Part shown: piece after piece, positions 6,685 to 14,355 of the stretch
How positions within the stretch are numbered: position 1 is the stretch's first letter
Layout: every line of letters starts with the position of its first letter
Source of the DNA: Cyanobium sp. CZS25K
GTDB taxonomy: Bacteria > Cyanobacteriota > Cyanobacteriia > PCC-6307 > Cyanobiaceae
DNA: 64,000 nucleotides
Assembly: GCA_030373325.1 (NCBI GenBank)
Contig: JAUCZB010000008.1
Location: 1 to 64,000 of the forward strand
Direction: 5' to 3'
Notes under the pieces: model-generated
The model's input: the letters and a program-made list of their open reading frames with translations, nothing else
What the model was told of the DNA's origin: nothing
Databases searched by the model: none
Position numbers and translations under genes: made by a program

Positions 6685-7296
6685 TCAGGGCAGGAAGGCC
6701 GCGAGGTCGAGGTCGGGGCGCCGCACCAGAGCGAACAGCGTGCCGGCATTGCCCCGGCTCACCCTGAGCTCGTCATCGAGCACAGTGATGTCGAGCCAGG
6801 CGGGAAAGCCCTGACGCACCTCCCGCAGGAGCTTGAGGCGGTCCTCTCCCCACCGGGGCCCCAGCCAGCCCCCCCGCTCGAACTGCACCGACACCCGCTG
6901 ATGGGGCGCCTCCGGAGCGATGGCGATCCGCGCCTGCACGGCGATCCCCGCCAGCGGGCCCAGGGGACCGGCCAGCCGCAGCAGGTTCATGGCCCGGCCG
7001 GCGGCGGGATCAAGCAGCTGCAGGTTCTCCAGCCAGGGCTGGACCGCCAGATAGGGCAGGGAACTGCTGCTCCAGCGCAGCTCCCAGACCCCCTGCAGCT
7101 GGGACGCCTGGCAGGAAAGATCCGCCGGCTGCTGCCGCTCGAGCCGCTCGATCAGGCCCCTGATCCGGCCGGCGACGGGCTTTCCGGACCGGGGAACGCC
7201 GGGACCGGGACGCAGCCACCCCAGCAGCTCCTCCCGGCAGCCGCGGCCCTCCTCGCTGGGAGCGCCGGGGTCGTGGGCAGGCGTGGCCGGTTCCAT
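6685..7296 (-). CDS. PAP/fibrillin (plastid-lipid-associated) family protein
   Basis: LQGVWELRWSSSSLPYLAVQPW...VSVQFERGGWLGP...LDITVLDDELRVSRGNAGTLFALVR. Confidence 0.75.
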   Translation of the reverse strand: MEPATPAHDPGAPSEEGRGCREELLGWLRPGPGVPRSGKPVAGRIRGLIERLERQQPADLSCQASQLQGVWELRWSSSSLPYLAVQPWLENLQLLDPAAGRAMNLLRLAGPLGPLAGIAVQARIAIAPEAPHQRVSVQFERGGWLGPRWGEDRLKLLREVRQGFPAWLDITVLDDELRVSRGNAGTLFALVRRPDLDLAAFLP

Positions 7297-7383
7297 CACG
7301 GAGAGCTGCAGGGCGCAAGGTCCCATGCTGGCAGGACCTTCCGGCCATCGGATACCGTGACGGGCCGGACCGGATCGCCGTCC

Positions 7384-7779
7384 ATGATCGAGTGCATCCG
7401 GCTCTGGACCAACGATCACCAGCTCTCGGAGTTCGAACGGGGCTGCGTGGATCTGGCGCCGGGCAAGCCGGGGGATCTGGTCAGTGCCGGGATGGCGGCC
7501 GGTGCGGTCTTTTTCAGCGAAACCGGCAGCGGCGGCCGCTTCGGCTGGCACACGGCGCCGAGCCGTCGGCTCGTGATCACCCTCAGCGGCAACCTGGAGT
7601 TCCAGCTGCGCGACGGGCGGACCTTTCTGCTGCACCCCGGCATCGTCCTGCTGGCGGAGGACACGACGGGCAGCGGCCATGCCTGGCGACTGATCGGGCC
7701 CGATCCCTGGCGGCGCCTCTACGTCACCCTGGCCGCAGCCGAGCCGGTGCCCTTCCGCACCGACCCCCTGCCCCCGTGA
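7384..7779 (+). CDS. Cupin-domain protein
   Basis: FGWHTAPSRRLVITLSGNLEFQLRDGRTFLLHPGIVLLAEDTTGSGHAWR cupin pattern. Confidence 0.75.
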   Translation: MIECIRLWTNDHQLSEFERGCVDLAPGKPGDLVSAGMAAGAVFFSETGSGGRFGWHTAPSRRLVITLSGNLEFQLRDGRTFLLHPGIVLLAEDTTGSGHAWRLIGPDPWRRLYVTLAAAEPVPFRTDPLPP

Positions 7780-9260
7780 CACTGACCAGCGTCGATGTGA
7801 CCCTCGTGGGGGCGGGGATCATGAGTGTCACCCTGGGCACCCTGCTCAAGCAGCTGCGGCCGGAGCTGCGCGTCCTGCTCCTCGAACGCCTCCCGCAGGA
7901 GGCCCAGGAAAGCTCCAGTGCCTGGAACAACGCCGGCACGGGCCATGCGGGGAACTGCGAGCTCAACTACACGCCGATGGCGGCGGACGGTTCGATCAGC
8001 CTCGCCAAGGCGCTGGACATCAACGAAGCCTTCGATCTTTCACGCCAGTTCTGGACCCATCTGGTGCGGGCGGGCGCCCTTGGCTCTCCTGAGGCCTTCA
8101 TCCAGGGCGTCCCCCACATGAGCTTCGTGCTGGGCGAGGAGCGGCGGGCCTACCTGCGGGAACGCCATCGGCTGATGAGCGCCCACCACTGCTACCGGGG
8201 CATGGCCTACAGCGAGGAGCGGGCGCAGGTGGCGGAATGGGCACCGCTGCTGATCGAGGGACGGGATCCGGGGGCGACGATCAGTGCCACCCGCTTCGTC
8301 GGTGGCACCGATGTGAACTTCGGGGCCCTCACCAGCCAGCTGCTGGATCACCTGCGCAGCTGCCCACCCTTCGAGGCGCGATTCTCCACGGCGGTGAAAG
8401 GCCTGCAGCGGCGGCAGGAGGGCGGCTGGCGCCTGGAGACCCGTGATCAAGGCACTGGAGAGCCCCGCCTGATCGATTCCGGCACCGTGTTTCTCGGCGC
8501 CGGGGGCGGAGCCCTGACCCTGCTCCAGAAGGCGGGGATCCCTGAAGGGCGCGGCTATGGCGGCTTTCCCGTGAGCGGCCTGTGGCTGCGCTGCAGCCAT
8601 CCCGAAGTCGCCAGCCGGCACCGGGCCAAGGTCTACGGGATGGCGGCCGCCGGCTCGCCGCCGATGTCGGTGCCCCACCTCGACACCCGTCTCGTCGACG
8701 GCAGACAGTGGCTCCTGTTCGGACCCTATGCCGGGTTTTCCACCAAGTTCCTCAAGAGCGGCTCCCTCTGCGACTGGCCCGGCTCCCTGCGGCCCGGCAA
8801 CCTGCTGCCCCAGCTGGCCGTGGCCCGGGACAACCTGGCGCTGACCGAATACCTGATCGGCCAGGTGTTCGCCAGCAGCGAAGAGCGTTTCGCGGCCCTG
8901 CAGAACTTCTATCCGAACGCCCGGAGCTCCGACTGGAGCCTGGCGGTGGCCGGCCAGAGGGTGCAGATCATCAAGGCCGATGCCCGCCGGGGCGGGGTGC
9001 TCCAGTTCGGCACCGAAGTGGTGCATGCGGCCGACACGTCCCTGGTCGCGGTGCTGGGGGCTTCCCCCGGGGCTTCCGCCGCCGTGGCGATCAGCCTGGA
9101 GATCCTGCGCTCCTGCTTCCGAGAAAAGCTCCCCGATGGCTGGGAGCGGACGCTCAAGCGGATCCTGCCCTCCTACGGCGAAGCGATCCGCCTCGACGCC
9201 GACCTCTGCCGGAGAATCCGCAGCGAGAGCGCCGAGGTGCTCAGGCTGGGGATGTCCTGA
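7776..9260 (+). CDS. mqo: Malate:quinone oxidoreductase
   Basis: DVTLVGAGIMSVTLGTLLKQL...SSSAWNNAGTGHAGNCELNYTP...FGPYAGFSTKFLKSGSLCD; GTG start in GTGA overlap with the cupin stop. Confidence 0.93.
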   Translation: MTLTSVDVTLVGAGIMSVTLGTLLKQLRPELRVLLLERLPQEAQESSSAWNNAGTGHAGNCELNYTPMAADGSISLAKALDINEAFDLSRQFWTHLVRAGALGSPEAFIQGVPHMSFVLGEERRAYLRERHRLMSAHHCYRGMAYSEERAQVAEWAPLLIEGRDPGATISATRFVGGTDVNFGALTSQLLDHLRSCPPFEARFSTAVKGLQRRQEGGWRLETRDQGTGEPRLIDSGTVFLGAGGGALTLLQKAGIPEGRGYGGFPVSGLWLRCSHPEVASRHRAKVYGMAAAGSPPMSVPHLDTRLVDGRQWLLFGPYAGFSTKFLKSGSLCDWPGSLRPGNLLPQLAVARDNLALTEYLIGQVFASSEERFAALQNFYPNARSSDWSLAVAGQRVQIIKADARRGGVLQFGTEVVHAADTSLVAVLGASPGASAAVAISLEILRSCFREKLPDGWERTLKRILPSYGEAIRLDADLCRRIRSESAEVLRLGMS

Positions 9261-10527
9261 CGTCGTTGGCGTCGGTGGTGGCGGCGGCGTCGGGATCGAT
9301 CACCTTGCCCAGCAGCCCGAGTTCGCGGTCGCGGGGCAGCATCAGCCCCCAGCGCACGTCCCCGGGGGCCTGAACGAACAGGCCCGCCATGGCCCGCACC
9401 AGCTGCGGCACCGACAGGGTGTTGGTGAGGAACCCCTGCCAGTGATCCGGCGGCAGCCGGAAGAAGGTGGCGAAGAAGTCGCGCAGCTGGTCCTCGTCGA
9501 AGCGCATCAGCTTCTCCAGCCCGAAGCGATACAGGGCGTGCTTGCGGCGCATCGGGGCGGGCCAGAGGGCTTCCCAGGCCACCAGGGAGAGGGCGGGGCC
9601 AGGCGCTGCCCCGGCGGGTGCCGCGCAGGCGGTGGCGATGGCCTCGGCCAGCCCCGGGGCGCGGCGCAGCAGGGAGCCCACCATGTAGCCGGAGGCGGGG
9701 TGGACCATGCTGGCGGCGCCGCCGAAGCCCACCAGCCGCTGACGGCGATCCGGCAGGGGCGGATTCATGGGGAACAGGCAATGCTCCTGCTCGTGGATCT
9801 CCTCCACCTGCACGCCGCGGTAGGCCAGCCGGCGCCGCAGCCTGTCCTTGAGAACGGCGAAAGGTACCGCCGGTGCCAGGGCCAGGGATGTCTCCTCCAC
9901 GAAATGGGTGCCATCGCCGAGATCCATCGCATAGAGAAAGGTGGGCGGCTGCCGCCGTTCCGCCTCGTTCAGGTGATCGCTGCGGTAGTCCATCAGGACG
10001 AACTGCCCCGGTGCCACCGGCGGCGCACTGAAGCGGCCCACGATTCCGTAGGCCGCCTGGCCCGCCACCGGCCCATCGTCGGGGCGGCGGACGAAGACGG
10101 GCGCATGGCCGCTGGCATCGATCACCAGCCGGGCCCGCAGGCGCTCACCCGCGGCGGTGCCGACCACCGAACCGTCAGGGTCGTGGTCGATGCTGGCGGC
10201 CCGGCCCCGATGCCAGCGCAGGCCCGCCCGCTCCCCTTGCGCCAGCCAGTGGGCCTGCAGGCGGGCCTTGTCGAACAGGCCGTAATCCTGCCCATGGGCG
10301 ATGGGCTCCGAGCCGAACCAGCTGACCGTGTCCGACCAGCGGTGGGCCAGCAGATGGGACAACCCGCAGGCATCGACTTCATGGCCCCAGATGCCGTAGG
10401 TGTTGGCCCACGGATGGTCCGGCTCCCGCTCCGCCAGGGCCTCCACCCGCAGGCCCCGTTGCCCGAGGGCGGCGGCGAGGCAGAGGGCAGCGGGCCCGGC
10501 CCCCACCACCAGCACATCCGTTGCCAT
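9241..10527 (-). CDS. crtL: Lycopene beta-cyclase
   Basis: FAD motif VLVVGAGPAALCLAAALGQ, FLYAMDLGDGTHFVEETSLA, FGGAASMVHPASGYMVG. Confidence 0.93.
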   Translation of the reverse strand: MATDVLVVGAGPAALCLAAALGQRGLRVEALAEREPDHPWANTYGIWGHEVDACGLSHLLAHRWSDTVSWFGSEPIAHGQDYGLFDKARLQAHWLAQGERAGLRWHRGRAASIDHDPDGSVVGTAAGERLRARLVIDASGHAPVFVRRPDDGPVAGQAAYGIVGRFSAPPVAPGQFVLMDYRSDHLNEAERRQPPTFLYAMDLGDGTHFVEETSLALAPAVPFAVLKDRLRRRLAYRGVQVEEIHEQEHCLFPMNPPLPDRRQRLVGFGGAASMVHPASGYMVGSLLRRAPGLAEAIATACAAPAGAAPGPALSLVAWEALWPAPMRRKHALYRFGLEKLMRFDEDQLRDFFATFFRLPPDHWQGFLTNTLSVPQLVRAMAGLFVQAPGDVRWGLMLPRDRELGLLGKVIDPDAAATTDANDVRTSPA

Positions 10528-10590
10528 CACGCCGGTACGGTGAAGCCACATCCTGCATCAAAAGCCATCCCCACTGCCGTCAGGCTGTTT

Positions 10591-11550
10591 ATGGCCCTCG
10601 CCTGCGCCCTGCTGCTGGCGCTGCCCCAGGCGGCCCATGCCAGCCAGCCGGAGGTGGTGCCGCTGCTGGTGTCGGTGGATGTGGACAACGTCCACGGCTT
10701 CTCCCCCCGCGACAAGACCTACATGGTGGAGGGAACCCTGCGCCTGGCGGCCCCGGCCCTGGTGATGGCGGGCTGGCTCGATGCCGGCGTGGATCCTGTC
10801 CGCCTGGTGCGCCTCCAGAACATGGTGCAACCCTGGGATTCCCTGATCGAGCCCATCGGTGGCCCCCTGCGGCAGGGCCCCAGCCTCGCCAGGACGTACC
10901 GCTTCAACGGCAACTTCTATTCCGACGAGATCGACTTCCGGGGTTACCCCTTCGGCGCCCTGCCCCTGCGGCTCAACCTGGCGCCTGAGCCCAGCTTTCC
11001 AGGCGCAAGCAAGGATCCTGCGGCGATCCGGCTGCTCGCTGAGCAGAACGGTTCCGGCGTGAGCCGACGCAGCAACATGAACGGCTACCGGCTGGCCAGC
11101 TGGTCGTTCCACAACACCGCAGGCGGGGTGGAGATGGAACTCGTTTACGAGCCCATCGGCTGGGCCGCCCTGGTGAAGTGGCTGCTGCCACTGGCGATCA
11201 CCATGGTCGTGATGCTGCTGACGCCCAATCTGCGTGCCGGCTTCCGCTCGGAGCGGCTGGCCATCCCCCCCATGATCCTGCTGACGCTGGTGTTCATGCA
11301 GCAGGCCTACCGCGACACCCTCCCCTCGCTGCCTTACCTCACGGTGCTCGATGGGCTGTCTGCGTTCTCCTATCTGGTGACGCTGGTGTTCTTCTGCGAA
11401 TTCATCTGGTGCGCCAACCGGCTGGATCGAGGCGCCGGCAGCGACAGCGTCCAGCTGGAGCGAAGGGTGGAGCGTCTGGAGCTGCTGCTGCAGCTGGCCA
11501 GCCTGGGCGGCTACGCCGTGCTGCTCGTCTGGGCCGGGGTCCAGCGCTGA
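10591..11550 (+). CDS. Pentameric ligand-gated ion channel (Cys-loop/GLIC/ELIC-like) family protein
   Basis: Signal peptide; beta-rich N-terminal domain with KTYMVEGTLRLA and DFRGYPFGALPLRL; M1 with proline (VKWLLPLAITMVVMLL); M2-M3 loop LPSLPYLTVLDGL; predicted M3 and C-terminal M4. Confidence 0.82.
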   Translation: MALACALLLALPQAAHASQPEVVPLLVSVDVDNVHGFSPRDKTYMVEGTLRLAAPALVMAGWLDAGVDPVRLVRLQNMVQPWDSLIEPIGGPLRQGPSLARTYRFNGNFYSDEIDFRGYPFGALPLRLNLAPEPSFPGASKDPAAIRLLAEQNGSGVSRRSNMNGYRLASWSFHNTAGGVEMELVYEPIGWAALVKWLLPLAITMVVMLLTPNLRAGFRSERLAIPPMILLTLVFMQQAYRDTLPSLPYLTVLDGLSAFSYLVTLVFFCEFIWCANRLDRGAGSDSVQLERRVERLELLLQLASLGGYAVLLVWAGVQR

Positions 11551-11586: not shown

Positions 11587-14322
11587 TCAGCCTTCCAGGT
11601 CAGGGGGAGCTTCTGCCTCCTCGGCCAGGTTCTCCTCAGCGAGGTTCTCCGCGGCCAGGCTCTCCGCGGCCAGGCTCTCCGCGGCCAGGCTCTCCGCGAC
11701 GAGGTTTTCCGCGGGCAAGACTTCCACGGCCTGGACGTCCTCGGCCAGGACTTCATCATCCTCCTCGGCGGCCGGCGGCACCAGCACCACTTCGGTGAGG
11801 CGGTCGCCGGAATCCAGTTTCTGCAGCCGCACACCGGTGGCCGCCCGGGACTGCTGGGGAATGGCATCGGCCTGCATGCGCACAATCACCCCCCGCTCGC
11901 TCACCAGCAGCAGTTCCTCGCCGGCGCCCAGCACCCTGAGGCCCACCAGCACGTCGCCATCGCGGCGGAACTTGATCGCCCGCAGACCCATGCCGGCTCG
12001 CCGCTGCAGCCGGAACTGATCCACCGGCACCCGCTTGCCCAGGCCGCTGGCACTGGCCACCAGCACCCAGGGACCCTCACTGGGGGCGACCTCATCGCCT
12101 TCCTCCTCGTCGGGACCCGCCTCGGCGTTGCTGGCGACACGGTCCGCCAGTTCCGCCGTCAGGACGTCCATGCTAACCAGCTCATCGCCGGGGCGCAGAT
12201 TCATGGCCCGCACGCCGCGGGCGGTGCGGCCCAGGGGGCGCAGCTCCTCGTCGCTGAGGCGGAAGTGGATCGTCATTCCCTTGAGGGAGCCGATCAACAC
12301 GCTGTCGCCGGGCAGGGCCAGCCGCACCCAGCGCAGGGCGTCACCGTCCTCGAGGGAGATGGCGATCAGGCCGTTGGAGCGGATGTTGCTGAAGGCCGAC
12401 AGCCGGGTGCGTTTGATGTAGCCGCCGCTGGTGAGCATCACCAGCTGCACGTCGTCATCGAAGGCGCTCACCGCCAGCAGGGAGGTGATCGCCTCCTCCC
12501 GGGGAATCGGCAGCAGCTGCACGATCGGGGTTCCCTTGGCGGAACGGCTGCAGATCGGCACCCGGTAGGCGGGGATGGAGTACACCACCCCCCGGTCGCT
12601 GAACAGCAGCAAGGCGTCGTGGTCGTTGCAGCTGATGAACAGCTTCACCGCCTCCTCGCCCTGGCTGCGGGTGCCGGCCTTGCCGCGGGTGCCGCGGCTG
12701 GTGGCCTCGAACTCGCTCACCGGCATCCGCTTGAGATACCCGTTTTCGGTGAGCAGCACCACGGACCGCTCGTTGGCGATCAGATCGATGTCCTCGAGGC
12801 CGCCCTCGAGATCCAGGATCTCGGTGCGGCGCGGGGAGTCGTAGCGGCTGCGCAGCACCTGGAGCTCCTCCTGGATCAGCCCCAGCACCCGCTCCCGCCG
12901 ACCGAGGATGTCCTTGTAGTCGGCGATCTTGGCGACGAGGTCGTCGTGCTCGAGGCGGATCTTGTCGGCCTCCAGGGCCGTCAGGCGCCGCAGCTGCATC
13001 TGCAGGATGGCGTCGGCCTGGATCTCGCTGAGGCCGTGGCGCTCCTGCAACTGGGCCCGGGCGGTGGCGGTGTCAGGGGCGGCCCGGATCAGGGCGATGA
13101 TCGGATCGAGCTGGTCGAGGGCCAGCAGCAGGCCCTGGAGGATGTGGTCGCGCTCCTCCGCCTTGCGCAGGAAGTAGCGGGTACGCCGTTCGATCGTCTC
13201 GATGCGGAAATCGAGGAAGACCCGCAGCATCCGGCCGAGGGTGAGCAGCACCGGCTCCCCCTTCACCAGGGCCAGCATGTAGGCGCTGAAGTTGTTCTGC
13301 AGCGGCGTGAGCTTGAACAGGTTGTTCAGCACCACCTGGGGGTAAGCGTCGCGGCGCAGTTCGATCACGATGCGCATGCCGTCGCGATCGCTTTCATCGC
13401 GGATGTCGGCGATGCCTTCGAGCTTCTTGTCGTTGACCAGCTCGGCGATGCGCTCGATCAGGGAAGCCTTGTTGGTCTGGTAAGGGAGCTCGGTGATGAT
13501 CACCGCGTCCCGGTCGGGACGGCCCTTGGCTTCCACCGTCTCGATGGAGGCCACGCCGCGCATGGTGATCGAGCCACGGCCGGTGGTGTAGGTCTCGCGG
13601 ATGCCGCGGCGGCCGAGGATCTGGCCGCCGGTGGGGAAATCCGGTCCGGGGATGATCGCCATCAGGGCGCGATCCTCGATCTCCGGGTCGTCGATCAGCG
13701 CCAGCAGGCCGTCGATCAGCTCGGTGAGGTTGTGGGGGGGGATGTTGGTGGCCATCCCCACGGCGATGCCGGAGGAACCGTTGAGCAGCAGATGCGGCAC
13801 CCGCGCCGGCATCACGGTGGGTTCCTGCTGGGAGCCGTCGAAGTTGTCGATGTAGTCGACGGTCTCGGCCTCGATGTCCTCGAGCAGGCTGTCGGTGGTG
13901 AGGGCCTGGAGGCGCGATTCGGTGTACCGCATGGCGGCGGGCGGATCGTTGTCGACCGAACCGAAGTTGCCGTGCCCGTCGATCAGGGGCATCCGCATCG
14001 AGAAATCCTGGGCCATGCGGACCAGGGCGTCGTAGACGGCCGTGTCGCCGTGGGGGTGGTATTTGCCGAGCACTTCGCCCACCACGCGGGCGCACTTCCT
14101 GTAGGGCCGGTCGCTGGTGAGACCGAGCTCGTACATCGCGTAGAGGATGCGCCGGTGCACCGGCTTGAGGCCGTCGCGGGCGTCGGGCAGGGCCCGGCCC
14201 ACGATCACGCTCATCGCATACTCCAGATAGGAGCGCGACATCTCGTTGCGCAGGTCGGTCTGGATGATCCGTCCGTCGGAGTCGCCGGGGGTGGATTCAC
14301 CGGGTCCGGTTGGATCCGCCAT
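11587..14322 (-). CDS. gyrA: DNA gyrase subunit A with repetitive acidic C-terminal tail
   Basis: [37 protein letters not shown]..., beta-pinwheel repeats; tail [31 protein letters not shown]. Confidence 0.97.
11623..11730. repeat. Imperfect tandem 15-bp repeat in the 3' end of gyrA
   Basis: ctccgcggccaggct repeated (three near-exact adjacent units, flanked by degenerate units). Confidence 0.85.
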
Positions 14323-14355
14323 GCAAGACCGTATGGGGCACAACTCACTCTATCG

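Follow-up and report, generated by a model that had tools for sequence, protein, structure and literature searches.

The 64,000-nucleotide window from the freshwater picocyanobacterium Cyanobium sp. CZS25K contains a gene for a pentameric ligand-gated ion channel (pLGIC) homologue on the forward strand. The open reading frame and its 319-residue translation are present at 10591..11550, as are all the sequence segments quoted in the first-pass annotation, and profile searches confirm that the gene lies, as that annotation had it, between crtL and gyrA (Table 1). Beyond crtL, and two genes from the pLGIC gene, is mqo (7392-9260, identity verified by profile).

Table 1 Coordinates of the pLGIC gene, its domains and its neighbours in the window
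Feature	Position	Strand	Remarks
pLGIC-family gene	10591..11550	+	319 aa and stop; 17 aa longer from the alternative GTG at 10540
Hydrophobic N-terminus MALACALLLALPQAAHAS, probably a signal peptide	10591..10644	+	read from sequence; AF2 helix 2-9
Extracytoplasmic β-sandwich domain, residues 19-189	10645..11157	+	AF2 strands 22-188
Pro loop (β6-β7) FRGYPFGAL	10936..10962	+	P120 invariant; Gly122 in place of the F/YPxD Asp
Residual loop C, reduced to a turn of two residues (177-178) joining strands 166-176 and 179-188	11119..11124	+	AF2 and alignment
Pre-M1 position E187-P188, Arg site of classical pLGICs	11149..11154	+	alignment
M1 helix 190-213, kink proline P200	11158..11229	+	AF2; P200 in 77/77 family members
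M2 helix 219-241: S-2′ E-1′ R0′ A2′ P4′ P5′ M6′ L9′ T10′ F13′ Q15′ Q16′	11245..11313	+	
M2-M3 loop LPSLPYLT, with P23′ and Y249	11320..11343	+	
M3 helix 252-280	11344..11430	+	AF2
M4 helix 286-318	11446..11544	+	AF2
crtL, lycopene β-cyclase, divergent neighbour	9241..10551	-	profile-verified; kept at most orthologue loci
gyrA, convergent neighbour	11587..14343	-	profile-verified; kept at most orthologue loci

Because the DNA is GC-rich, the frame of the pLGIC gene stays open for several hundred codons further upstream; the extent of the ORF is therefore uninformative, and the start was placed by homology. Matches to orthologues begin near residue 20 of the window protein, with the hydrophobic leader ahead of them, and the start codon is not conserved, the orthologues' own start ATG being ATC in the window. 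Both ATG 10591 and GTG 10540 are possible starts, the 17 residues added by the latter including a basic n-region.

Conservation of the gene and its locus

At least 13 other genomes, assigned to Cyanobium, Synechococcus, Aphanothece and related assemblies, carry orthologues with about 61-74% identity, and 13 of these orthologues are full length or nearly so. Twelve of them, together with a fragment (L044), are flanked by crtL and/or gyrA, and L031 is the sole orthologue locus with neither gene in the available stretch. Across 13 orthologues the reading frame is intact in all and dN/dS lies between 0.05 and 0.41. In the clade that these sequences form with the window protein (14 genomes), the gene has a mostly fixed locus and is under purifying selection.

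Within the window's genus, 35 of 42 genomes match the family profile. Eight of the nine orthologue-bearing genomes of the genus contain no second pLGIC gene (two of these eight, the window's genome among them, are less than 90% complete), so that any pentamer is probably homomeric. Interrupted pLGIC genes, with frameshifts or stops, are found in genus relatives (G009:C33:60043-60956; G016:C101 and C62), which suggests ongoing loss of the gene. Clusters of dnaJ-, hemB- and mutS2-like neighbours, picked out by eye, were considered as partners and set aside; they look like conserved housekeeping context.

Membership of the pLGIC superfamily

Searched as a single sequence, the window protein has no Pfam match and finds nothing useful in PHROGs; a MAP17 match (E=0.14) is attributed to chance, and the matches to NCBIfam LGIC_1 (E=0.006) and ELIC (E=0.017) are weak. 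A profile of 21 family members (the window protein and 20 relatives) searched against the PDB detects ELIC near full length, over both domains, at E=4e-16, and GLIC at E about 1e-10. The profile built from orthologues only is weak (best E=0.002), yet eight of its eight matches are pLGICs. When PF02932 is used as the probe, it misses the window protein and most of its family, so absence from Pfam scans is no evidence against pLGIC membership.

The AF2 model of the window protein (58 sequences; pLDDT 92.1, pTM 0.82) consists of β-strands spanning residues 22-188 followed by four helices (190-213, 219-241, 252-280 and 286-318). All 50 of the best Foldseek matches listed for this model are pLGIC structures, and the best match listed is GLIC (3eam; E=4e-19, TM 0.75). 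The AF2 model of a relative from Synechococcus WH7803 shows this fold too, though less confidently (pLDDT 85). The first-pass annotation had called the protein a pLGIC homologue, a claim to be abandoned if profile matches were not significant or if the predicted structure lacked a β-sandwich and four helices; the ELIC and GLIC matches are significant and the model has both elements.

Hallmark residues of the superfamily are in place, including P200 (the M1 kink proline that had been picked out from the sequence, present in 77/77 family members), P245 in the M2-M3 loop, the basic 0′ residue R222 and L231 at 9′. The β6-β7 F/YP motif, whose proline is cis in the superfamily, is present as Y119-P120, and the proline is likewise found in all 77 family members. 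Residues 100-130 contain no cysteine, and the disulphide of the eukaryotic Cys-loop is therefore absent. The window protein belongs to the pLGIC (Pro-loop receptor) superfamily. In a survey of 561 members (Jaiteh et al. 2016, PMC4795631), no residue but the β6-β7 proline was conserved throughout (100%). With that superfamily the window protein shares this proline, the M1 and M2-M3 prolines, a β9 aromatic, R0′ and L9′, but it lacks the F/YPxD aspartate (93%) and the pre-M1 arginine (94%), which together make the superfamily salt bridge (PMC4795631) and are common rather than universal traits.

A P4′ branch of pLGICs

The 77 aligned family members all have R0′, P4′, L8′L9′T10′L11′, Q15′, P23′ and the M2-M3 Tyr. 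P4′ is invariant also in a second cyanobacterial group (9/9; L115-L124), which has YPLD rather than YPF in the Pro loop, keeps the pre-M1 Arg and goes unmatched when the genomes tested are searched with PF02932. The double proline in M2 had been flagged as unusual. As P4′ is a signature of the branch, we rejected it, and the pair, as what makes the window protein odd; for P5′ the remark was apt, this residue being particular to the clade and a few relatives.

Family members are found in the Cyanobacteriota, Myxococcota, Pseudomonadota and Verrucomicrobiota. The family profile matches 61 of 391 sampled cyanobacterial-class genomes, although some of these matches are weak and probably other pLGICs. 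The tree bears out the earlier description of a divergent branch: the window's clade is recovered as one group (SH-aLRT 100), its stem is 1.95 changes per column long, and the clade is derived within the P4′ branch. The window protein is a divergent, vertically kept pLGIC of Cyanobium/Synechococcus-type picocyanobacteria, new in its variant features and belonging to a superfamily already known. Elsewhere, one Synechococcus contig (L099) has, within 7.5 kb, three genes or gene fragments of pLGIC type (163-1098, 1385-2545 and 6814-7503), possibly encoding a heteromer.

Loss of loop C, the salt bridge and the polar 6′ ring

Loop C has been lost in the window's clade. The segment comprises 18 residues in the clade (22 in two members) versus 32-39 in other family members and lacks the aromatic and histidine residues that loop C has in the relatives, and the AF2 model has only the turn at 177-178. 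A loop C with aromatics, expected of an ELIC-type orthosteric site, is thus not found in the window protein.

All three partners of the β1-β2/Cys-loop/pre-M1 salt bridge are missing in the clade. In the Pro loop the first-pass annotation had noticed PFG for the usual PFD; the residue is Gly122, and the clade has Gly in 13 of its 14 members and Asp in one. The pre-M1 Arg site is occupied by Pro188 in the window protein and by Pro in 14/14 of the clade. Arg stands there in 2/77 of the P4′ family versus 12/12 classical and 9/9 YPLD controls, and the residue preceding the site is R/K in many family members and mainly D/E/Q in the window's clade. The column of GLIC D31 holds Ser38 in the window protein, and Ser in the aligned orthologue shown. 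Alanine at either the Asp or the Arg leaves ELIC non-activating, and GLIC fails to activate with Asp→Ala and fails to express with Arg→Ala (PMC4778918). The bridge that the Cys-loop Asp forms with the pre-M1 Arg is regarded as near-universal and required for activation, and a natural branch without the Arg, including one clade without any partner, provides a ready-made test of that requirement.

The polar ring at 6′ of the pore is lost as well, the residue being V in 13 members of the clade and M in one versus Thr in the other 63 family members and in 9/9 of the YPLD group. Positions -2′ and -1′ are S-E in the clade, as in ELIC, and D/E followed by a hydrophobic residue elsewhere in the family. 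The clade shows no variation at R0′, E-1′, L9′, Q15′, Q16′ and P23′, and M2 and the M2-M3 loop rank among its most conserved stretches. The column of GLIC Glu35 is Lys42 in the window protein and Lys in 14/14 of the clade, so the residue expected of a GLIC-type proton-gated channel is absent.

A UrtA-type partner gene in a sister clade

In a sister clade, a single group (SH-aLRT 100), a gene encoding a lipoprotein of the UrtA family (PF13433/TIGR03407, E to 1e-167) adjoins the channel gene at 23 of 26 testable loci, from four phyla; no UrtA-type gene stands beside the channel at the other family loci examined. The absence of an obvious partner remarked on in the first-pass annotation holds for the window gene, which only crtL and gyrA adjoin, and fails for these 23 relatives. 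The UrtA-type gene usually lies just upstream of the channel gene, with a 4-bp overlap in L050, L051 and L056. The order is reversed in WH7803 (L074 4782-7192) and CO36386bin_29, again with a 4-bp overlap, and the two genes are convergent in CS-1330; the three loci that have no UrtA-type gene are freshwater relatives of CS-1330.

The UrtA-like protein next to the channel is the only UrtA-family match in the complete WH7803 genome. This genome has no UrtB match and no urease match, and the UrtA-like protein therefore does not serve a urea importer there as its binding component. Two MAGs tested, both incomplete, also gave no UrtB and no real urease match. Since WH7803 lacks UrtB and urease, the UrtA-type lipoprotein probably serves the channel as a sensor subunit. 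In the window's own genome, urease and an ordinary urtA-urtB pair are encoded at other sites, and a link between the window pLGIC and that UrtA, which adjoins UrtB, was rejected.

Our searches of the open-licence literature found no report of a UrtA-type partner of a pLGIC. Tasneem et al. (2004, PMC549065) described prokaryotic ART-LGICs, among them cyanobacterial ones and members from 'Synechococcus sp.' and Methylococcus capsulatus, of which these last two may fall in the P4′ branch. That paper gives PBP-II, Cache and MCP-N as partners, with PBP-II as neighbours of other bacterial pLGICs, and differs from the present results in that the pairing with UrtA, a type I protein, goes unmentioned in the sections consulted. 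A 2021 review of picocyanobacterial binding proteins leaves 'orphan urtA' genes unexplained (PMC8786288), and pairing with a channel may account for them. The 2016 survey knew of no prokaryotic pLGIC with a known biological role (PMC4795631); the UrtA-type pairing supplies a concrete role hypothesis for part of the family.

L099 is among the loci with a UrtA-type gene adjacent to a pLGIC gene. In another early P4′ branch the channel gene lies near a gene for a type I binding protein of another kind (Peripla_BP_6, LIV type), at L104, L107 and L109, and at L092 together with an ABC ATPase.

Gating of the window protein

Since loop C, the salt-bridge triad and the polar 6′ ring are lost, either gating is non-canonical or the protein does not conduct. 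The first-pass annotation had offered the same pair of outcomes, which we too favour, but the grounds are now the missing triad and loop C and the hydrophobic 6′ rather than those it gave. As the protein has neither the classical agonist pocket nor the proton sensor of GLIC, we favour, with some reservation, a homopentameric channel with a periplasmic β-sandwich and non-canonical activation as the best explanation, and a non-conducting receptor is its main rival.

Such a homopentamer would sit in the cytoplasmic membrane with the β-sandwich in the periplasm. Its pore would probably be cation-selective, to judge from a single ring, E-1′ beside R0′, which resembles S-E-R of ELIC, and stacked hydrophobic rings at 6′ (V/M), 9′ (L) and 13′ (F) should seal it well at rest. 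Opening would occur without capping of an agonist by loop C and without the β1-β2/Cys-loop/pre-M1 salt bridge, the extracytoplasmic domain perhaps being coupled to the M2-M3 loop by the remaining packing contacts F116, Y119, P120, P245 and Y249. Candidate stimuli are ions, lipid or membrane signals and protein partners, rather than small amines or amino acids occupying the classical pocket. Against this explanation, the long stem (1.95) and the joint loss of several gating residues also fit non-conduction.

A pentameric receptor that passes no ions, serving as a periplasmic sensor or membrane scaffold and signalling to a partner by conformation, strikes us as unlikely but worth serious attention. 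It would accommodate the loss of three residues at whose positions ELIC and GLIC mutants are non-activating or non-expressed, the replacement by V/M of a 6′ Thr common to the other 63 family members and the YPLD group, and the long stem branch. However, the high conservation of M2 and the M2-M3 loop, with six invariant positions, is unexpected for a decaying pore, and no signalling partner is encoded adjacent to the gene.

The branch as a whole may couple stimulus to pore unlike any studied pLGIC, the window's clade doing so without loop C and the triad and the sister clade through a UrtA-type protein, with sensing moved off the channel; we put this forward tentatively and with more doubt than confidence.

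ELIC (Erwinia/Dickeya, 2vl0/2yks) resembles the window protein in its β-sandwich and M1-M4, Pro loop, M1 kink proline, S-E-R before M2, L9′ and LPxLPY M2-M3 loop, the last a likeness to the GLIC/ELIC pattern that had been recognized at the outset, and it is the best sequence-profile match (E=4e-16). An ordinary ELIC-type channel, gated by a small amine or amino acid at an inter-subunit site under a loop C cap, is nevertheless very improbable. Although ELIC is the nearest solved relative by sequence and shares S-E-R at -2′ to 0′, the window protein's loop C falls 10-20 residues short of those of its relatives, is modelled as a turn of two residues and has none of their aromatic and His residues; the protein also lacks the PFD aspartate and the pre-M1 arginine, and has P4′ and F13′ in its pore, whereas ELIC itself is opened by primary amines.

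A GLIC-like proton-gated channel is very improbable. GLIC (Gloeobacter) is the best structural match listed, has the same simple architecture with no extra domains, and is also without a known small-molecule agonist, but at about 15% identity its Glu35 is replaced by Lys (14/14 in the clade), its Asp31 by Ser in the sequences shown, and the salt bridge is absent. A spurious or decaying frame, lying opposite crtL or gyrA or between them in DNA of high GC content, is scarcely credible as an explanation, because very long open frames on both strands and an unconserved start codon weigh little beside 13 intact orthologues with dN/dS of 0.05-0.41 and a high-confidence fold, which refute it in practice.

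Other features of the locus

The mqo gene also stands beside the pLGIC gene of WH7803 (L074 2924-4405); its proximity to both this gene and that of the window may be coincidence. At the C terminus of gyrA (window 11617-11754), 15-bp tandem repeats encode an acidic tail of AESLA type.
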